Shown here: piece after piece, positions 1,312 through 11,546 of the stretch
How positions within the stretch are numbered: the stretch's first letter is position 1
Layout of the letters: every line of letters starts with the position of its first letter
Source of the DNA: a virus
IMG/VR virus record: IMGVR_UViG_3300044731_000225
Span: 1 to 38,336 of that record
Length of the DNA stretch: 38,336 nt
Strand: one strand, 5' to 3'
Notes under the pieces: model-generated
The model's database searches: none
The model's input: only the letters and a program-made list of their open reading frames with translations
Told to the model about the DNA's origin: nothing
Program-made: the position numbers and the translations under genes

Positions 1312-2702
1312 TACAACATCCCACCAGTAGCAGGCATAACTGCAATGCGCTCCATCTCATCGTCAAACGATACGTCCTGCATGATAATGTCACCAGCGAC
1401 AAGGTTGTCGAATAAAGTTTGATGCGAGATTGAGCCGCTTTGCCAAGCCTTAACCAAACTATCCAAGTCCTGAGCTGTCATTGAGTTTGGAATAAAATCA
1501 CGGTTTAGCTCAACCTTAACATCACCAGTTACGCCCGACCAATCACGTAAATATTCCATGACGTGTGTCAATCCAATGCTAATGGACTGTGAAATTGAAG
1601 CAAGAACACTGTTTTCACTTGAGCGGTGAATATTAGCCGTTTGCGCTGATTCTGCTGCGCGTTTTTCTGGTGCTAAAATACGCGCCCCAAGTGTTGCCAT
1701 CATTGCCTCTTTTGACCGCAATGCTTCACGCAATTCGCCTAAGCCTTGCCCTGTAAATTCAAGATAAAATGCTTTTGATTGCGGGTCTGGCAATAACCAT
1801 GCCGTTCCGCTACCGATACGAAGTGACGCGCTTTTATCGTCTGAATAATATCCAGTGACTACTGGTGTTGGTAGTCCAGTAAAGTGCAAGCCATGTTCAT
1901 AATCGGCTGTGGTTCTGTAATGCGATAAATTCACATCGACAAGGTCAAGCAATGGCGGTTTATCCACACAGGGTGAATTGTCACGCACACCAAAAAACTC
2001 AAACGGTATTTTGTTTAATGCTTTGCCGTTAATTTGTGGGTAAACTTCATCCACTAAAACAAACTCACCGCGTTTGTCTTTTCTGAAAACACGTTGACGA
2101 TAAATTCCACCATCGCCTAAATCAAGAACGCGCCATTGTGGTTCACACTTAGACTCAAACTCATCAACTGCAATTTCGTTTTCTTCTTCAAGCACAACAA
2201 GCGTTAACTGTTCAACGTTGTTAATACGTCCAGTTTTCCAATTAATGATTGATTCTGCATTGTACATGGTCGCGTAAGGTCTTGCGCCTTGTGCCTGTGC
2301 TTGTGCAAGTGTTACCGCATTAACAATAGGTGGAAAATCGACAAGTACGGCACAACGTCCGATAGTAATAACTTCTTCTGCTACCATTTCAGCAAATTGA
2401 TGCAGCGATAACCCGCCCATTGTCACGTCTGTAATAATATTATCCATTGCAGCGGGTGCTGTGATGACTTCGGGTTTTAAAAATAGCATTCCCGTTAAGC
2501 CGTCGATTGTGCGATTTGTAGCGTTGTAATATAACGCGCGTTGTTTATAAGCGTAATATTCTGCGTCAGTTTGACCGCTTAAACGCGGCAGGTATTTGAT
2601 ACCTTCTTTGTGGATCTCGTCTTGCCCTTCTGCTGCGTGTTCGCATCGCTCCCACTGCTCATAATATTCATGATACTCGCTGTGTTTTGTATCGACTGCC
2701 AT
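1311..2702 (-). CDS. portal protein (DUF4055 family)
   Basis: 463 residues. The N-terminal region reads like DUF4055 portal proteins: a HxxYxxxWxxxxxxxxG lead-in, then KYLPRLSGQTDAEYYAYKQRA and a TIDGLTGMLF stretch near residue 65. The portal forms the dodecameric ring at one capsid vertex through which terminase packages DNA and to which the neck attaches. Length and position (just after large terminase, before MuF) are standard. The C-terminal third contains the helix-rich AESAQTANIHRSSENSVL segment typical of portal stem/wing regions. It lies 2 bases after the terminase stop codon. No truncation is seen. Confidence 0.9.
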   Translation of the reverse strand: MAVDTKHSEYHEYYEQWERCEHAAEGQDEIHKEGIKYLPRLSGQTDAEYYAYKQRALYYNATNRTIDGLTGMLFLKPEVITAPAAMDNIITDVTMGGLSLHQFAEMVAEEVITIGRCAVLVDFPPIVNAVTLAQAQAQGARPYATMYNAESIINWKTGRINNVEQLTLVVLEEENEIAVDEFESKCEPQWRVLDLGDGGIYRQRVFRKDKRGEFVLVDEVYPQINGKALNKIPFEFFGVRDNSPCVDKPPLLDLVDVNLSHYRTTADYEHGLHFTGLPTPVVTGYYSDDKSASLRIGSGTAWLLPDPQSKAFYLEFTGQGLGELREALRSKEAMMATLGARILAPEKRAAESAQTANIHRSSENSVLASISQSISIGLTHVMEYLRDWSGVTGDVKVELNRDFIPNSMTAQDLDSLVKAWQSGSISHQTLFDNLVAGDIIMQDVSFDDEMERIAVMPATGGML

Positions 2703-2704
2703 TT

Positions 2705-3973
2705 TTAAATTCCTGTAATTGCTGCAAATGATGGTCTATTATTAACTAGCGGGTATCTATACGCAATAAAATAACCTGTTGCATCAACAACGTGGTCAAA
2801 TCCACCAGCTTTGTCAGGCTCACCTGTTTTTGCATAACACTGCTTTTCAAGTGATTCAACCAGCATTGGACAATACTGCGCATTAACAAAATAACGTCTT
2901 GCGCCTAAATTGTGAATCATAGCGTTAACCGATAACACGCGATCTTTAATGAATGGGTTGCGTGAATTAACCAACACTTGCAACCCGTACGAGCGCAAAA
3001 TGCTGTGATCTGATTCGCTTGCGTTGTTTGATTTTCGAGCGTTACCGCTTGCATCAGGATAAATTAAAATCCTGTGCGTTGGGTAGCGTTCTTTTAGTAA
3101 CCGCGCCATTGTTGGCGTATCGAACACGCCAGTGAGCTCATTAACAACATGAACGCTGTCACCGCGCAATACATGAATAACAGCAGACATATTGGAAACG
3201 TTAAAATCCAACCCAACATGCAAAACATCGTCTGAATTAATAACTTCAATGGATGAATTAAGATTTCTGTCAAACTCATGGTAGACGCTCCCAGCGTTAA
3301 GGTTTACAAATTCGCCATCAAGATACGCGGATAATTGTGCGCTTGAATAGGTTGCTTCAAGTTGCTTAATGTATCCATCGGGCAAATATGGATTGCTTGA
3401 AGTAGGTGCTTTAATTAACTCGTAGCCTTCGCGTGGTTCTTTGCCCCACATTTCGTACATGAAAGCAAAGCCTTCAGGAGTTGATACTGCTGCAAGCGTG
3501 TTAGGCGAGTTGTCTGGTTTTCGTTCTCTAATCCGTCCAAGCATTTTAGTCCAAACCAGTTTGGCTTGGTCAACACGCAACGTATCGGCTTCATCGATTA
3601 CCGCATCCGCTAATTGAAAACCAACCAAACGCTCTGGGTTGTCTGCTGATCTAAAAATAATCTGCGAATTGTTTTCGAGTTTGATAATTGCATCAGCTTT
3701 ATTAAGATTATATTTAACTCCCCACTCATCAAGTATTTCTTGAAAGCGCGGGAAAGCAATCAATCGGATAAGATCATAAGTAGGCTCAACAAACCCAAAA
3801 GATAAACCATCGTATTTAAGTGCAAGCAAAGCCAATCGAATGACAGCGGCTTGTGACTTTCCCGCGCCATATCCCGCCACCATAGCAGGATGGATTGCTT
3901 CACTGAAAATGAAGTCCTCTTGTGGTTTAGTTAACTTAAGCCTAATCTTCACGCGCTGCTCGCTCAACCACAA
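2705..3973 (-). CDS. terL: terminase large subunit
   Basis: Up to 422 residues. Walker A GYGAGKS is at 34-40 and a Walker B-like VIDEAD at about 125-130, forming the packaging ATPase. The C-terminal RNase H-like nuclease is marked by the acidic positions in LHVGLDFNVS, ILIYPDASG and GGFDHVVDATGYF. It cuts concatemeric DNA and drives it through the portal. The reading frame opens at ATG 3973, 32 bases inside the small terminase gene. A GTG at 3952, just before KIRLKLTKPQ, is an equally plausible start because family members usually begin near that motif. It is coupled to terS by overlap. The packaging strategy (cos or headful) is not visible. Confidence 0.93.
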   Translation of the reverse strand: MWLSEQRVKIRLKLTKPQEDFIFSEAIHPAMVAGYGAGKSQAAVIRLALLALKYDGLSFGFVEPTYDLIRLIAFPRFQEILDEWGVKYNLNKADAIIKLENNSQIIFRSADNPERLVGFQLADAVIDEADTLRVDQAKLVWTKMLGRIRERKPDNSPNTLAAVSTPEGFAFMYEMWGKEPREGYELIKAPTSSNPYLPDGYIKQLEATYSSAQLSAYLDGEFVNLNAGSVYHEFDRNLNSSIEVINSDDVLHVGLDFNVSNMSAVIHVLRGDSVHVVNELTGVFDTPTMARLLKERYPTHRILIYPDASGNARKSNNASESDHSILRSYGLQVLVNSRNPFIKDRVLSVNAMIHNLGARRYFVNAQYCPMLVESLEKQCYAKTGEPDKAGGFDHVVDATGYFIAYRYPLVNNRPSFAAITGI

Positions 3974-4337
3974 ATGTGTAACCTGTTTTTATAGTTGCTT
4001 CAACACGATCTGTTGATACGCCTGCTGCTTTACCTCTGGCAATTTCAGCCGTAATAGCCGCGTTAATTTGATTGTTTTTTACAGCAAGATTGCGCAACGT
4101 CATCAAGTCTTTTAAATGCGATTCAAGTGTAATGCCAACGGCTTCAATGATTGGTTTGCGTAGTTCATCAACCCTTGCTGAAATATTGCTGTCAGCCATA
4201 AGCCGTGAAGCATTAGCTTGTATTGTTTCAGGCTTAGTTGTTGGCTTTGTATCAAACGCCCCACGATAAGCATCAGCCTGTGTTTTGCCTTCTGCAACGA
4301 GTTGTGCAAAGCGTTCTTGTTTAGGTGTGAGAGCCAT
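3942..4337 (-). CDS. terS: terminase small subunit
   Basis: 131 residues resembling the Terminase_2 family: an N-terminal helix-turn-helix opening LTPKQERFAQLVAEGKTQADAYRGAF, then a helical oligomerisation region to about residue 110. It recognises the packaging site and loads the large subunit. The gene begins 5 bases after the formyltransferase-like gene and overlaps the large terminase start. Its place after the modification-like genes and before terL is normal for the packaging module. Confidence 0.88.
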   Translation of the reverse strand: MALTPKQERFAQLVAEGKTQADAYRGAFDTKPTTKPETIQANASRLMADSNISARVDELRKPIIEAVGITLESHLKDLMTLRNLAVKNNQINAAITAEIARGKAAGVSTDRVEATIKTGYTFVVERAARED

Positions 4338-4342
4338 AATTA

Positions 4343-4993
4343 TTATTCGTTTAATTTATATCCGTGGCCTATTAAAACCAAGTCTGGTCTAAAAGCTGGT
4401 TGGGTATTGATAGCCGGTTCAAAAGTAGCTAACGATTCATCTTGTGGCGTTCCTATAACATATTCGTATTTTAAAAATTTTTCAACCGACTTAACAATTA
4501 GCTCAACACCTAAACTCTGAAGCGAGTTTTCCCATAACGTTTTTTCTGTGTCGTCTGGACGGATAAAAACGTGCCGCTGTTCTATAATATCTCCGCCATC
4601 CATTTTATTGCTTAATTTATAAACAGTGCCTCCAGTCACTCTTTCACGCATTTTTAAAGCCCACCTAATTGCATCGCGCCCCCTATGAATAGGCAGCAAA
4701 GACGGATGATAGCCAATACCGCCATATTTTGCTTTTAACCGCGTTTTTTCGCCAATAAAATCATGAGAATGTGCCGCAATAATTAAATCGATATTTTCCG
4801 GCATTGTTGAAGCATTTAGCGTTCCAGACGGTATTAAACGAATAGAATGCAAATCTGCTTTTGCAGCAAGCCTGTCTGTTTTTTCTCCGCCAACTGGTGC
4901 AGCAATTGCGGAAACTTCAACGTTTTTTATTTTTAAAAGCGCATTAAAAACTTGCGCTCCAAAATGTTTTTGTCCGGCAAGTAATATTTTCAT
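4343..4993 (-). CDS. formyltransferase-family protein lacking the catalytic Asn
   Basis: 216 residues. A Rossmann-like N-terminus (MKILLAGQKHFG) and the GART/FMT core loop GIGYHPSLLPIHRGRDA (92-108) followed by TGGTVYKLSNKMDGGDI (120-136) place it in the N10-formyl-tetrahydrofolate-dependent formyltransferase superfamily (PurN, Fmt, ArnA-type). The catalytic triad there is Asn-His-Asp. Here His96 and Asp132 are present, but the Asn position (Asn-x-His) is Gly94. It is shorter than Fmt and lacks the Fmt C-terminal tRNA-binding domain. It lies directly after an ABC-ATPase/GNAT fusion, so the pair may act on the same substrate, possibly a DNA base or nucleotide. The substrate is unknown. Confidence 0.82.
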   Translation of the reverse strand: MKILLAGQKHFGAQVFNALLKIKNVEVSAIAAPVGGEKTDRLAAKADLHSIRLIPSGTLNASTMPENIDLIIAAHSHDFIGEKTRLKAKYGGIGYHPSLLPIHRGRDAIRWALKMRERVTGGTVYKLSNKMDGGDIIEQRHVFIRPDDTEKTLWENSLQSLGVELIVKSVEKFLKYEYVIGTPQDESLATFEPAINTQPAFRPDLVLIGHGYKLNE

Positions 4994-5022
4994 TTTTTAA
5001 CGCCAAAGTATAAATCGTGCAT
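4990..5022 (-). CDS. possible 10-residue leader peptide coupled to the formyltransferase-like gene
   Basis: The ATG at 5022 has an AAAGG Shine-Dalgarno at suitable spacing and encodes MHDLYFGVKK, stopping at TGA 4992-4990. That stop overlaps the ATG of the next gene (ATGA). The next gene has no Shine-Dalgarno of its own, so ribosomes finishing this mini-ORF could reinitiate there. The AAAAAA run before the stop would, after a -1 slip, fuse the peptide in frame to the downstream protein. The peptide is inferred from arrangement only. Confidence 0.35.
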   Translation of the reverse strand: MHDLYFGVKK

Positions 5023-5068
5023 TGTTGGCCTTTTTTTAAATTTTTTTATAAAAAATAAAGTTATTTTT

Positions 5069-6202
5069 TTAAACATTTGCAGCTGCCCTTGTCATTTTGT
5101 AGCCCTGCACCGCACGTAGATGCCCCCCATACCCAGTCGCGCAACCTTTTTTTCCTCGTAAAGATTTTTTAATTGAAGCCCCTGATTTGCCTTTATGACC
5201 TCCGCCTTGCATTTGAGATACTTGTAGCCATCTTTTATCGCGCCTAAGTGCCGCGCATAACGCTGGGTGCGAGGTGTGAAAGTAAACAGCTTTTGTGCGA
5301 TCGTGATATTTATTTGCCTCAGTAAACTGAAGCCTACATACCTCGTTTAAAAATTTCATTCCTACGCCAGCTCCTTGCCATTCTGGCATGACAACCATTC
5401 TACACGCCCTCATTCCGCCAATTTCGAGTCTAGGTGAGCAAGCAATGTGGCAAACCGCCTCACCATTTACAAAACCAACATAATAATTTGCCGCTACCAT
5501 CAACGGTAATTTTAAATAATGATGCGGCTCAAACATTCTCCAATACGATGAGTCTGTCTTGAGAATCTCAAGCTCAAATTTTGGCCTTTGCCAAAGATCC
5601 CCCCTAGCAAGCTCGCCAGTATGAGTATCAAAAACCCAATCAGGTTCAACCCAGTCTAAAATATCATAATGGCAAGATAGCAAAATAGCCTGCCCATTTC
5701 CGCGCTTAAACGATTTGCTAAATGCTGACGCGCCTATTTTTGCAATTTGCCTATCAACCACAGACGTAAATTCGTCAATAATAACCCTGTCGTGTTGCTC
5801 GGCAATAACACGAGCAAGCCCCGCTCTAAACTTTTCACCGTTTGACAGCGCGTGAAATGGTCTAAGCCATGCCGGAACAGACCCTAAGCCAACAGACGCA
5901 AGCGACCCTGCTACATCATCAAAATTTCCATCTTTTGCAATACAGTCAATAATTGGCTTATTTTTTTCCCATCCTAAATCTCCGTCATAAATGCCAACGT
6001 CCTGCCAAATCGCCCTGCCAATACTGGTTTTTCCAGAACCAGACGCGCCTACAATAACGCCTATTTTCCAGTTGTTGTCTTCTAAAGGAATATCCGCGTC
6101 AAGGTTAAAGTTTGCCCCGCTTTCACAATTAAATAACGACTTTACTCGCGCTGCACGGTACGAATTAAACTCAGAGCAACTGTTTCTTATTTCAATTTTC
6201 AT
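5069..6202 (-). CDS. ABC-type ATPase fused to a GNAT acetyltransferase
   Basis: 377 residues in two domains. Residues ~40-205 are a complete ABC ATPase: Walker A GASGSGKTS (52-60), signature LSNGE (119-123), Walker B VIIDEF (140-145) and switch His178. Residues ~235-330 are a GNAT fold with the acetyl-CoA loop RMVVMPEWQGAGVG (268-281). The last ~45 residues are basic and Gly-rich (GGGHKGKSG). No transmembrane partner is encoded nearby, so it is not a transporter. Phage Mu Mom, a GNAT-like DNA-adenine modification enzyme, is the closest phage precedent for a GNAT acting on DNA. A role in DNA modification with the ParB-like and formyltransferase-like neighbours is inferred. The start directly follows the ParB stop (TAA-ATG). 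Confidence 0.85.
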   Translation of the reverse strand: MKIEIRNSCSEFNSYRAARVKSLFNCESGANFNLDADIPLEDNNWKIGVIVGASGSGKTSIGRAIWQDVGIYDGDLGWEKNKPIIDCIAKDGNFDDVAGSLASVGLGSVPAWLRPFHALSNGEKFRAGLARVIAEQHDRVIIDEFTSVVDRQIAKIGASAFSKSFKRGNGQAILLSCHYDILDWVEPDWVFDTHTGELARGDLWQRPKFELEILKTDSSYWRMFEPHHYLKLPLMVAANYYVGFVNGEAVCHIACSPRLEIGGMRACRMVVMPEWQGAGVGMKFLNEVCRLQFTEANKYHDRTKAVYFHTSHPALCAALRRDKRWLQVSQMQGGGHKGKSGASIKKSLRGKKGCATGYGGHLRAVQGYKMTRAAANV

Positions 6203-7407: not shown

Positions 7408-8091
7408 CTAATCCCTATAAGCCATCAATATTTCTTTGCACATGCCTGAGCGCACAACATCATCCACCGTAAACTCAACCATGCCTATCTTATCCACATT
7501 TTGTAATCGATTAACCGCATCTTGTAACCCGCTCATGCCAGCAATATCTTTTTGCTCAATATCACCATCAATAATGACTTTGCAATCCTCACCGATGCGC
7601 GTTAAAAACAACTTCATTTGCTGTGGCGTGCAATTCTGCGCTTCATCTAAAATATAAAAACACCGCGCAAACGTTTTGCCGCGCATAAATTCCAGTGGTT
7701 TAAACTGAATAGATCCACGTTTTAACAAATACTCCGTGTGCGATTTCCCAAGTCGCTCATTAAGAACATCAAGCAAAGGCTCCATATAAGGCGCATATTT
7801 TTCAGATAATTCGCCAGGCAAATAACCAAAACCACGACCAGCTTCAACGTTGGGTCGCGTCATAATAATTGTATCAATAATGCCCTCTGACAGCATTTGA
7901 GCGGCTACCCCTGCCGCTATATACGTTTTACCTGTTCCCGCGCTACCAATGGCAAATGTAATTACATTAGCGCGTATTTGATTCAGATATTGCTGCTGTG
8001 TTTTGTTTAACGCGCGTACCGGTTTAATTTTCGGCTCATAATAATCATTTTGTGGTGCAAACTTAGCTGATCGTTTCTCTTTTCGCTTCAT
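7408..8091 (-). CDS. phoH: PhoH-like P-loop ATPase
   Basis: 227 residues. Walker A GSAGTGKT is at 49-56, Walker B FYILDEAQN around 145-153, and the family motifs TRPNVEAGRGFGYLPGEL and QPQ-like TPQQMKLFL are present. PhoH-family ATPases are common in phages and in bacteria. Proposed roles involve RNA processing with YbeY-like endonucleases, but the phage function is not established. A Lys/Arg-rich N-terminal extension of ~25 residues precedes the domain. The ATG at 8091 is preceded by AGGAAC. It is the first gene of the long leftward unit, downstream of the structured non-coding region, so it may be expressed earliest or most strongly in that unit. Confidence 0.92.
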   Translation of the reverse strand: MKRKEKRSAKFAPQNDYYEPKIKPVRALNKTQQQYLNQIRANVITFAIGSAGTGKTYIAAGVAAQMLSEGIIDTIIMTRPNVEAGRGFGYLPGELSEKYAPYMEPLLDVLNERLGKSHTEYLLKRGSIQFKPLEFMRGKTFARCFYILDEAQNCTPQQMKLFLTRIGEDCKVIIDGDIEQKDIAGMSGLQDAVNRLQNVDKIGMVEFTVDDVVRSGMCKEILMAYRD

Positions 8092-8125
8092 GCAATTTTG
8101 TTCCTGTTAAGTTAACCATCAAAAA

Positions 8126-8224
8126 TTAACCACTAACACCGAGCCTCAAAATTATCAGAAAATGATCCGGTGGCGCAACTGCTCCCGTCTTTTTTCCGTG
8201 CGAGAGGACACGTCTAGTGGCTAA
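8126..8224 (-). ncRNA. structured leader element upstream of phoH
   Basis: On the leftward strand the segment is closed by a 10-bp stem with one G-U pair (8215-8224 with 8126-8135). Inside are a CGTG/CACG hairpin (8197-8212) and a CACCG/CGGTG pairing (8137-8141 with 8168-8172). The closing mismatch is a G-U wobble only in leftward RNA, which supports that orientation. A TTTTT run (8121-8125) follows the stem, so it could be a terminator-like or attenuator element between the ncRNA terminator and phoH. It does not match a riboswitch I can name. Confidence 0.4.
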
Positions 8225-8236
8225 TTTTTCATAATT

Positions 8237-8274
8237 AAAAAAACCACCACGCCATTAATGCAAACAACGTGGTG
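8237..8274 (-). terminator. intrinsic terminator of the 8.24-8.75 kb RNA
   Basis: On the leftward strand a CACCACG/CGTGGTG stem (8268-8274 with 8245-8251) with a 16-nt loop is followed after one G by seven T residues (8243-8237). The opposite strand has no T run after the hairpin, so it acts leftward. It would end transcripts starting near 8752 before they reach phoH unless antitermination occurs. Confidence 0.75.
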
Positions 8275-8752
8275 TAAAAAAATTCCTATTTAATCAAGCC
8301 TAAACTTCCTACGGTGAACGATTGATTAAGTAGGCTACAACCCAAGTCCTTATTCAAGGATTTGAAAAGTTTGTTGATAGTTGCCGGTGCTGATCTCCGG
8401 CTTGCAACATTGATGCAGCATTAAAAATGCCTTCTGATTTACGAGCGTCCCCTTCAGTTGCTTACAGAATTCGCGTATCAGCCTACGCATTAACTATCAA
8501 TAATCAACTCTCTTACTTATACATTTCGATACGTTGTACACCGTATTCTACCTGCGTCTTGAGCCAACCCGATTGGTCGATTCCAACATCGCCAATCCTT
8601 TATATCTGGTTCATTGTTTGGATTCTTAGCCAGCCACAAGGTTGTCAATTCTTCGTAAAGTTGATTATTGATAGTGCTTGTCTTTCCAAGCTGTCACCAA
8701 CCAACCCAGTTATTGATAAATCGCCATAAAGTGATTTCTGGGTTGGTTGGTT
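8237..8752 (-). ncRNA. candidate large structured non-coding RNA (~516 nt) or late-operon leader
   Basis: The leftward segment between a strong promoter and an intrinsic terminator has no meaningful ORF on either strand. It is rich in helices: a 13-bp perfect hairpin at its 5' end (8738-8750 with 8697-8709); a GCTTG/CAAGC hairpin; a 17-bp perfect long-range helix (8659-8675 with 8493-8509) enclosing 149 nt; and further hairpins GCGTA/TACGC, GCCGG/CCGGC, TCCTT/AAGGA and a 12-of-13-bp helix (8322-8334 with 8285-8297). Size and architecture recall large phage RNAs such as GOLLD and ROOL, but I cannot show homology. An alternative is an attenuated late leader comparable in position to the lambda 6S transcript. 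No tRNA lies beside it. Confidence 0.65.
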
Positions 8753-8758
8753 CGTTAA

Positions 8759-8787
8759 ATAATAACTTTGTAAATTATAATTGTCAA
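8759..8787 (-). promoter_or_regulatory. strong sigma70-type promoter for the leftward RNA/late unit
   Basis: On the leftward strand TTGACA (8787-8782) is separated by exactly 17 bp from TATTAT (8764-8759). Initiation would fall near 8752, two bases before the first helix of the candidate RNA. The spacer is largely the operator-like sequence 8769-8786, implying control by a phage regulator. This is the best promoter match I found in the window. Confidence 0.75.
8769..8786. promoter_or_regulatory. operator copy 1 (diverged palindrome)
   Basis: TGTAAATTATAATTGTCA matches the 18-bp palindrome TGTAAATTATAATTTACA found at 13353 and 15936 in 16 of 18 positions, with the differences in the right arm where the -35 box TTGACA of the leftward promoter is encoded. 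It lies in the promoter spacer, so a bound protein would block or modulate it. Confidence 0.55.
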
Positions 8788-8796
8788 TTATTAATA

Positions 8797-8838
8797 TAAA
8801 ATCAAAAGGTACCAGTAAAGGTCACATTTACTGGTACC
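8797..8838 (-). terminator. terminator hairpin of the replication-gene transcript
   Basis: A 12-bp perfect inverted repeat, GGTACCAGTAAA (8808-8819) and TTTACTGGTACC (8827-8838), has a 7-nt loop. Reading leftward it is followed by TTTTGATTTT (8807-8798), fitting an intrinsic terminator for the HTH-primase transcript just before the next promoter. Its arms also belong to the repeat family that fills 8808-9075, so it may have a second role in replication. Confidence 0.6.
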
Positions 8839-9075
8839 TCTGCATCCTGCATATTTATTAGTGTTTGACGGCAAAGGTACCGGTAAAAAACAGGTAACAG
8901 TTTTTTAAAAACCCTATTTCCTATTATAAAAAATTTTATTTTTATTATTTATTCTTTTTAAATATATATTTACTGTTACCTGTTACCTTTAGTGTAGAAA
9001 TATAGATAATTAAAGGCTTTGAGCAGGTAACAGAAGATTTTTTTCAACTGTTACCGCGTCTTATTTACTGTTACC
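8808..9075. other. candidate replication origin with bidirectional iterons
   Basis: Copies of a GGTA(A/C)C-centred motif cluster here in both orientations: GGTACCAGTAAA 8808, TTTACTGGTACC 8827, GGTACCGGTAAA 8876, GGTAACAG 8893, TTTACTGTTACC 8969, TGTTACC 8981, GGTAACAG 9026, CTGTTACC 9048 and TTTACTGTTACC 9064. Between 8901 and 8968 lies an almost pure A/T run suited to strand opening. The cluster directly follows the prim-pol/SF3 helicase gene, the usual companion of an origin. Initiator binding is inferred, not shown. Confidence 0.6.
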
Positions 9076-9083
9076 TTTATCAC

Positions 9084-11546
9084 TTAAAAGTCATCATCAA
9101 TCGATAAAGTTTCATTCAAAAGTTGACGACATCTATCATTATCAAAATCAGCGGCTTTTTTTACCCACAGTCTTTGAGGTACGCCATTCCATTTAACCTG
9201 CTTATCGACTTTCATATAACCCATATTTTCAAAAATCCTCCGCATATTCTTGTGGTTTATTTCTGGAAATTCATAATCTGAAAACGAATTATTTTCGATT
9301 GCCTTTGTTAAAAGCGAGCTTGAAATAATGCTTGTGCTGTAGCCATAACCACCTTTTTTAATAAACTCAATTAAGTCTAAAAGCTCACTGCCTTTTTCTG
9401 CTGCAATCATTGAGCGTTTTTCATCGGTTATTGGCGCATGTCCATACGCTTTAAAATCATCGCTAATTTTAAAATCAAGAAAAAAACGTCTAATATCACC
9501 GCCAAAATTTGATATAGCGTTTCGTATTTTTCCGAAATATTCGTAAATATCGCCAACATCACGCGCCATGTCGTGAATGTCAGTGTAAGGTGAAAAGATT
9601 ATCCCCCAGCGTCTATCATGATCGTTTAACGGCAATGCGTCGCGGTGATTAGTAAAAGCAATATAATTAGTTACGTTCACAATCGAATAGTTATCACGGT
9701 TCATTCTGCGAATGTCGATGGTGTCGTTGGTTATCATTGGCTTAATGGTATCAAGTACATCAAAACGGTTATGCCCAGCAACGCGCAATTCCTCAAGCAC
9801 TACCATGCAACTACCTTCTGCCCATCCGGTAAACTTGTCTTGAAGTGCTGTAGGCGGCAGCGGCTTCACGTTACGCCCACCAAGGCAACACGCGATAACA
9901 TCGGCTATGGTGCTTTTGCCATCGCCTTCAAAACCTTGTATTAATGGTGAGTGTTTAATTTTTTTTCCTATGTTCTGTGTGCTATACGCAATAAAATCCA
10001 TTAACCATTGCGTTTCCTTCTCACGTTTTCCGCATAAATTGGCTATATGGTCAATGACTGGCTGTATTTCCTGCATTGCTTCAGGCGTGATTTTAGTTGG
10101 CGTTTCTGGTAAACTATTGACCGAAAATGAGTTAACGCATTGAACCCCATCAAGCTCAAAAAACTGCTGATTTTGCGGCATATACACTGCTCGGCTAAAG
10201 CAAGGGATATGATTATTATTTAACGCAAAATTAGCAGCTCCAATATTTCCACTTTCTGCATCATCCCCCATAATTTTTCGCGTAAAGTTTGCATCAAAAG
10301 ATTGCTTAGTTATTTCTTCTTTTGTATCGACATTATAAAAACGATCACGATCATTAAGCCATATCCAATGTTTGCAAAACGCGGGTGCATTTTCGGCTAA
10401 TTGACTATTTCTTGAAGGCGTTAATAATTTTCGAGCATCACTAATTGAAATACCCACGTTTGCTAAAATCTTATAACGTGTTCGCCATTCGCCAATAATG
10501 GTTGCTCTTGCAATATCTGAAAGGCTAATATCGCTCCTTATTGCATCTGCAACGCTTCCTTGCATATCTGAAACATCCGTGCAATTTGCAATCAGTTGTG
10601 AAAGCGTTTGTGATGCCTGCTTGCTTTCGACTTCTTTAGCCGCGTAAACAATAGAGCCTGTTGTAATCTTTGCGCCACCGTTGTTTTTAAACCCATGCCA
10701 TTTTGCGTCACATTCACTGCCGTCATAACTTCCAGTGCTTGACCATTCTTTCCACAATTCAAGTCCAACAACCGCGTGAAAATCTTTTAACGCTAAACCT
10801 ACCTTTATCCAATCGTCATAATCATCCGCATTAAATCTTTTTTGAATACGCAACTTTTCACGCATTTCTGCAATTTCATCATTACCAATTTCAGCATAAA
10901 CACCAGCAAACGGGTCATCATTGTCAATAACACCAACGTTTACCGGCAATACTTTCTGCACGTTGTCAGGCGTAAACCCATCAAACGTCACATCATGCGC
11001 CCCGAATTGCTCAAGCATCGGCTTAAGCGACACAAGCCACGCACGAACCTGCTCAACATTAACGCTTGGCAATTCATCAATTGTGGTGTTGATTGGCTCG
11101 TCACCTGCGTTTAAATCCCATACATAAGGCTTTTTAGTATCTGGGTGTGTGCCATACGCAATAAACTGTTGACCGTTTGCAAGAATCTCAATGGCTGGAT
11201 TTTCCAGTCCATCAAACTTAAATTTTATTTTGTGCTTAGTCATTGCTTCATTAATTCTAATCAGCATTAAGCATTTAGGCTTATTGCCAAACCGAACAGG
11301 CGCAAAGCCAAAAGCCGATTGCGCACTAGCCAGAACGCTTTTAGCCATGTCCTCGTTTAATATATCAATATCAATAGCGATTAAACGATCACCCAGCACG
11401 ATACCGACATTTTTATCAGCCGCATATTTCTTCCAAGACGGGTCATTTTCTCGATGTTGCCAACCGTTGCCAAGTGGTCGCTTACCATTTGCGGGCGTAA
11501 TGGTGTAACCGTTTCTATCTAAATCATCATAAACGCTACTTAACAT
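9084..11546 (-). CDS. prim-pol / PriCT-2 / SF3 helicase replication protein
   Basis: 820 residues in three parts. Residues ~10-190 form a bifunctional primase-polymerase (AEP) domain with the metal-binding IDIDIL motif near residue 50. Residues ~235-310 match PriCT-2 (DDYDDWIKVGLALKDF, then DAKWHGFKNN). The C-terminus is a D5/DUF5906-like SF3 helicase with Walker A GFEGDGKST at about 536 and Walker B VVLEEL near 580, followed by FTNHRDALPLNDHDRRW. It would prime and unwind DNA, probably at the iteron cluster immediately downstream. No family A or B DNA polymerase is encoded in the phage, so elongation probably relies on the host or on this AEP domain. It overlaps the HTH gene by 11 bases. Confidence 0.9.
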   Translation of the reverse strand: MLSSVYDDLDRNGYTITPANGKRPLGNGWQHRENDPSWKKYAADKNVGIVLGDRLIAIDIDILNEDMAKSVLASAQSAFGFAPVRFGNKPKCLMLIRINEAMTKHKIKFKFDGLENPAIEILANGQQFIAYGTHPDTKKPYVWDLNAGDEPINTTIDELPSVNVEQVRAWLVSLKPMLEQFGAHDVTFDGFTPDNVQKVLPVNVGVIDNDDPFAGVYAEIGNDEIAEMREKLRIQKRFNADDYDDWIKVGLALKDFHAVVGLELWKEWSSTGSYDGSECDAKWHGFKNNGGAKITTGSIVYAAKEVESKQASQTLSQLIANCTDVSDMQGSVADAIRSDISLSDIARATIIGEWRTRYKILANVGISISDARKLLTPSRNSQLAENAPAFCKHWIWLNDRDRFYNVDTKEEITKQSFDANFTRKIMGDDAESGNIGAANFALNNNHIPCFSRAVYMPQNQQFFELDGVQCVNSFSVNSLPETPTKITPEAMQEIQPVIDHIANLCGKREKETQWLMDFIAYSTQNIGKKIKHSPLIQGFEGDGKSTIADVIACCLGGRNVKPLPPTALQDKFTGWAEGSCMVVLEELRVAGHNRFDVLDTIKPMITNDTIDIRRMNRDNYSIVNVTNYIAFTNHRDALPLNDHDRRWGIIFSPYTDIHDMARDVGDIYEYFGKIRNAISNFGGDIRRFFLDFKISDDFKAYGHAPITDEKRSMIAAEKGSELLDLIEFIKKGGYGYSTSIISSSLLTKAIENNSFSDYEFPEINHKNMRRIFENMGYMKVDKQVKWNGVPQRLWVKKAADFDNDRCRQLLNETLSIDDDF

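Follow-up and report, generated by a model that had tools for sequence, protein, structure and literature searches.

What is encoded by the 516-nt locus at positions 8752-8237 (minus strand) of the window, the 38,336-nt stretch of viral DNA analysed here in full? The locus is flanked by a primase gene (9084-11546) and phoH (7408-8091), both oriented leftward, and the initial annotation had read it as a long structured non-coding RNA bounded by a promoter and a terminator, either a divergent member of the GOLLD or ROOL families or possibly a new class. The non-coding reading was borne out, because the locus lacks a credible ORF and is strongly folded (z -5.45): its minimum free energy is -156.2 kcal/mol, compared with a mean of -122.7 (sd 6.2) in 100 dinucleotide shuffles, none of which was as low. 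The longest open frames on the minus strand are 58 aa from stop to stop, and a plus-strand ORF of 100 aa (8427-8729) matches no PHROG or Pfam family and is not credible. Protein coding by a protein-like frame pair at 8693-8513 was considered and rejected, because no phage match was found and homologous DNA contains frame-breaking indels. The fold and the lack of a credible ORF thus support a long structured non-coding RNA, the transcript itself being a prediction.

A scan of the whole window against Rfam 15 yielded no family at its gathering score, and a permissive scan of 8080-9100 detected neither GOLLD nor ROOL, returning only weak sub-threshold matches far below the gathering scores. Size and phage origin are shared with these two families, but the different architecture and the absence of an Rfam match, whether at gathering scores or at relaxed ones, make a divergent GOLLD or ROOL member extremely unlikely. 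The suggestion of a possible new class is supported.

Both proposed ends of the RNA were found as candidates. A sigma-70-type promoter match (TTGACA-17-TATTAT, 11/12) lies at 8787-8759 on the minus strand; two relatives (L367 and L369) have the same layout before the same first hairpin, and three others (L004, L005 and L377) carry a different -10/-35 set at the equivalent position. Since the region as a whole is poorer in promoter-like sites than its shuffles (5 versus 9.5), the match is weak when taken by itself. At the other end (8274-8237, minus strand), a 12-pair stem (8274-8245) followed by GTTTTTTT forms a candidate intrinsic terminator, which is conserved in the related locus L003. An array of inverted repeats (GGTACC and GGTAACAG types) at 8797-9078 separates the RNA from the end of the primase gene, and relatives have other palindromic repeats there; these could be origin or operator sites.

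A kissing-loop scaffold with covariation support

Distant BLAST matches from the window are short and cover one hairpin in Klebsiella, Salmonella and Pseudomonas phages. A 19-mer of this hairpin occurs in at least 120 stretches of viral contigs, where fewer than one is expected by our estimate, although exact-match scans over-represent conserved hairpins. The hairpin belongs to an element at 8500-8374 (minus strand), hereafter the kissing-loop scaffold or 'type B' element, delimited by covariance models and covariation. It consists of a closing stem of variable sequence (P1, 8500-8492/8382-8374), a hairpin GCGC-AGGCTGAT-GCGC (P2, 8488-8473; loop 8484-8477), a variable stretch, and a hairpin AAGCCGG-AGATCAGCA-CCGGC (P4, 8401-8383; loop 8396-8388) that directly abuts the 3' strand of P1. 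The GCUGAU of the P2 loop is complementary to the AUCAGC of the P4 loop, and the two hairpins frame a hypervariable arm (P3, 8472-8402, about 71 nt). All of these parts (P1, P2, P4 and the complementary loops) are present in the window.

A covariance model (R2) built from 37 sequences, all outside the phage group of the window, recovered 8500-8374 at 77.7 bits with an E-value of 2.6e-22, which is rough owing to a shortened calibration; the next-best match in the window scored 7.3 bits. Another model (R1) gave 82 bits for the same scaffold. Among 44 diverse sequences, 94.8% of the stem cells are paired versus 80.8% after shuffling, and 136 cells show two-sided changes versus 37.7, a number that none of 500 shuffles reached. 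When the partners were slid as a control, pairing dropped to 31-49%. P1 alone, compared across 112 elements, is 89% paired versus 57% in shuffles, with 293 two-sided-change cells. Two compensation scans, in which letters were forced to change on one side while their partners were left free, recovered the stems GCCAG/CTGGC, GCCTG/CAGGC, GCTAG/CTAGC, GCCCG/CGGGC and GCACG/CGTGC. No Rfam 15 family covers this scaffold, and no description of the motif was found among open-licence papers, either by sequence or by terms.

Five of the six loop-loop pairs are invariant. The loop complement changes only in L154 and L155, where the change is compensatory and gives the pair GCCGAT/ATCGGC. On this invariance and the single compensatory change, the P2-P4 loop-loop pairing is likely real. 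In addition, G-U pairs outnumber A-C combinations (23 versus 7, p 0.005), which favours an RNA of the minus strand.

Exchange of the hypervariable arm

The arm varies from 12 to 178 nt in length (median 71), and 112 arms fell into 91 clusters, 76 of them singletons, in a BLAST comparison that can miss distant similarity. Unrelated arms are found even between elements whose downstream flanks are 93-100% alike (L019/L066, L046/L072, L052/L061, L105/L150 and L079/L137). The slot of the window's arm is filled in L003 by an unrelated sequence, module D, which was found in a type B scaffold in 18 cases and in a different scaffold in 29. Some arms consist of conserved rims surrounding a new variable core, which points to nesting, and some contain tRNA-like modules. 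The possibility that the arms are especially stable folds was rejected (median z only -0.43 against shuffles).

Because arms are exchanged in a cassette-like manner between conserved rims, the element might be thought of as a folded single-stranded DNA recombination site or the end of a mobile cassette, in which case its RNA form would be irrelevant. The bias of G-U over A-C and the promoter and terminator matches in the window argue against such a DNA role, which we regard as very improbable.

The locus as a chain of modules

The initial annotation treated the 516 nt as a single RNA. It is indeed long and structured, but it is not one conserved unit: as judged from sequence comparison, the locus is made up of exchangeable stem-closed modules in a row, each evolving separately. 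The widespread core among them is the element at 8500-8374, with its covariation support. The first module, M1 (8751-8696, minus strand), has a CCAACC-type stem of 14 bp (8751-8738/8709-8696) with GGCGATTTATCAAT inside, and homologous hairpins in L014, L190 and L357 have a changed stem that is still paired (CCACAAGCCAG/CTGGTTTGTGG). In related phages, the same first hairpin is followed by the 149-nt module described below, by tRNA-like modules, by module D with either scaffold, or by nothing. A simple parser counted 35 module orders among the related loci fetched, the order of the window being confined to a few near-identical loci.

Module A (8695-8676, minus strand), GACA plus the hairpin GCTTG-GAAAGA-CAAGC, recurs as an exact 20-mer in at least 119 stretches of viral contigs, and its stem covaries (GCCTG/CAGGC, CCCCG/CGGGG, GCCGG/CCGGC and GATTG/CAATC). 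A perfect stem of 8 bp or more follows it at 39% of 114 sites, compared with 2.5% in shuffles, and on the strength of this excess we take module A as the point at which stem-closed units begin. A tRNA detected by ARAGORN starts within 25 nt of module A at 14 of 122 sites. As a hairpin, module A may serve in processing or as a leader. As a separate observation, its GACA-N5-GAAAGA-N5' form commonly lies just upstream of phage tRNAs, tmRNAs and tRNA-like units (for example in L191, L192, L195, L198, L200 and L254), and in L189 (4203-4511) a unit beginning with it is present in four tandem copies. Another set of tRNA-like units, with an acceptor of AGTCAGG...CCTGACTAC, a T-arm and a variable middle, was seen in L198, L206, L210, L214, L222, L229 and L247; the Rfam tRNA threshold is reached by some of these units and missed by others.

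Module M3 (8675-8493, minus strand) is a 149-nt insert closed by a 17-bp helix. It recurs beside different modules in L226, L251, L348, L347 and L340, and its slot in L005 and L241 is taken by other modules, tRNA-like ones included. The closing helix proposed in the initial annotation stands as a perfect pair (8675-8659/8509-8493) with 149 nt between its arms, but its outer 6-8 bp or so compete with P1. The two would be mutually exclusive, since they share one strand (8500-8492). Forcing P1 shortens the 17-bp helix to 11 bp, at a cost of 8.6 kcal/mol with loop-loop pairing not counted. Single pairs of this helix are lost without compensation in L245 and L340. The strand 8492-8509 can thus pair with either 8659-8675 or 8371-8382, which is possibly a switch, or a scar or overlap of recombination. 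Downstream of the scaffold, a stem-closed module with 13-nt arms (8334-8322/8297-8285, minus strand) precedes the terminator; its sequence is the same in L003.

Outside the locus, the phoH leader contains module C (8209-8179, minus strand), found in 51 stretches of viral contigs. Its CTCTCG loop pairs with a downstream CGGGAG, and across phages the CTCNNN/NNNGAG pair occurs in six perfectly compensated combinations (CTCTCG/CGGGAG, CTCCTG/CAGGAG, CTCATG/CATGAG, CTCCAG/CTGGAG, CTCATA/TATGAG and CTCGCG/CGCGAG). Module C is a predicted pseudoknot backed by this covariation, without an Rfam call. In L006, L007, L009 and L011, the RNA locus and phoH are separated by an inserted gene, of the PAPS-reductase type by appearance, that has the same module C leader.

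Distribution and gene context of the scaffold

The scaffold is present in at least 120 viral contigs, and a single query retrieved it from 147 phage records. In E. coli, 827 of 5,426 genomes match the copy of phage HK633, one prophage site being verified at 79.1 bits. It is rare in cellular genome contigs (8 matches in a strict scan). The hosts of the phages that carry it include Erwinia, Klebsiella, Pseudomonas, Aeromonas and Stenotrophomonas. It lies between Q and holin in lambdoid and P22-like coliphages, within a tRNA cluster in the P1-like RCS47, in the repressor-to-yfdP region of E. coli prophages, and, elsewhere, upstream of terminase. The neighbouring genes are diverse, and such heterogeneous locations imply that no one gene is served. 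As far as sequence data can establish it, the scaffold is a conserved, strand-specific RNA fold with an exchangeable arm, set in many unrelated gene contexts. A general association with tRNA genes was convincing in hand-picked phages but was rejected after a random-position control (6% versus 3% within 1 kb). In Klebsiella phage Madison (L151), about 3.2 kb without an annotated gene (2434-5647) contain several stem-closed RNA units, a kissing-loop scaffold with a long arm and a match to the STnc100 sRNA, and are followed by tRNAs.

A shorter sister element, P1-GTGAATGCGGCTNAGCGC-arm-CCTGGAGGCACCAGG-P1', is found in two prophages of E. coli K-12: in Qin it separates dicF from dicB, and in Rac it separates kilS from kilR (NC_000913, about 1649454-1649581 and 1418262-1418390). 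Both copies are unannotated, and each immediately follows an sRNA, DicF in Qin and KilS in Rac. Their loops are GCTGAG (P2) and AGGCA (P4). The covariance-model E-value is only 0.003-0.01, and support comes from covariation of P1 and P4. The sister element also occurs in viral contigs, where the matches listed are a lower bound.

The strongest rival to a trans-acting role is that the scaffold is a cis-acting UTR element, involved in RNA processing, transcript stability or put-like antitermination, with an unconstrained arm. By crude gene calls, the elements usually lie in long untranslated stretches and are codirectional with their neighbours. Terminator-like hairpins occur within 120 nt downstream of 18 of 110 elements, compared with 5.6% of random positions. 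Also in line with a cis role are the location after pR'/Q in lambdoid phages and that of the sister copy within dicBF, a transcript processed by RNase III and RNase E. However, the arms are not random filler, as indicated by their conserved rims and variable cores and by the use of one module in different scaffolds; the downstream genes are diverse and, again by crude gene calls, 24 of the 84 elements with both neighbours called have theirs on the opposite strand; and in the window a terminator lies between the RNA and phoH. We consider a purely cis-acting element rather unlikely, while giving it serious weight.

A possible function of the scaffold

The conservation of structure, the strand-specific pairing, the exchange of arms and the modular rearrangement lead us to prefer, tentatively, the reading that the scaffold is a trans-acting, tRNA-like display of an exchangeable working arm. 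The conserved P1/P2/P4 part would form a stable, nuclease-resistant scaffold, and the arm would be the working part that acts in trans, perhaps as a decoy or by base pairing, against a host target that changes. Arm diversity would arise through recombination at the conserved rims. Against this display reading, the arms barely out-fold shuffles, proximity to tRNAs is not general, and the loop-loop pairing has one compensatory change besides its invariance; in addition, many elements may belong to 5' or 3' UTRs, and this suits a cis role as well. A broader and more doubtful proposal is that phages share a pool of small, recombining RNA domains that nest in the manner of Russian dolls. In it, tRNA-like scaffolds would be the connectors through which ever-changing arms are presented against host targets, making the pool the RNA equivalent of modular tail fibres.

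The scaffold is widespread, supported by covariation and missing from Rfam 15. Since it is present in standard coliphages and has a sister copy beside DicF in K-12, laboratory strains offer a way to test it. Should the arms prove to be functional cargo, the scaffold would represent a general phage platform for diversifying non-coding RNA.

Comparison with known RNAs

ROOL and GOLLD are RNAs of phages that form kissing loops between molecules and carry a disordered linker, in which tRNAs may be present (PMC12286853). The RNA described here resembles them as a large structured phage RNA of unassigned role that has kissing loops and a variable linker able to hold tRNAs. However, ROOL and GOLLD are 600-800 nt long, whereas the core of the present element is about 70 nt plus the arm; its modules rearrange freely, it matches neither family by sequence or model, and it is not tied to tRNA islands. 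GOLLD and ROOL are often near such islands, and Rfam detects no tRNA anywhere in the 38 kb of the window. With this precedent of intermolecular kissing loops (PMC12286853), and with complementary loops and arms that sometimes contain tRNA-like modules, the loop-loop pairing could be intermolecular and build a homo-oligomer with the arms as cargo. Intra- and intermolecular pairing fit the present data equally, and the lack of a sequence match to ROOL or GOLLD weakens the parallel; we regard a homo-oligomer as improbable.

Other stable phage RNAs have unassigned roles, and some of them have been called tRNA-like: rnaC and rnaD of T4, and RNA1, RNA2, RNA3 ('tRNA-like') and RNAX of T5. They were rejected as relatives, because the scaffold is absent from the T4 and T5 regions (best E 0.39 and 0.21, respectively). 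The display reading, if true, would also help to address the old question of the role of stable non-coding RNAs in phages such as T4 and T5. The putRNA of HK022 is a pair of hairpins in a phage leader (PMC9378689), about 70 nt with two stem-loops, and acts on RNA polymerase; unlike the scaffold, it has no enclosing stem with a variable arm. The sister elements in the dicBF and kilS/kilR leaders are shorter than the scaffold and differ from it in their loops.

The layout of the scaffold also parallels that of tRNA. ARAGORN and the Rfam tRNA model do not recognise the scaffold as a tRNA, and its placement as an intron in tRNA genes was rejected, since ARAGORN with introns gave 4 scattered calls around 129 elements, all of them intron-allowed. 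The scaffold differs from tRNA in having no T-loop consensus, a 9-nt P4 loop and a 6-bp loop-loop pairing. Nevertheless, P1 corresponds to the acceptor stem, P2 to the D-arm, the variable arm to the anticodon position and P4, stacked on the acceptor, to the T-arm; in this model, the P2/P4 loop pairing would take the place of the D-loop/T-loop contact. In E. coli, RNAs are expressed with the help of an artificial 'tRNA scaffold' that carries its cargo in the same anticodon-arm position.
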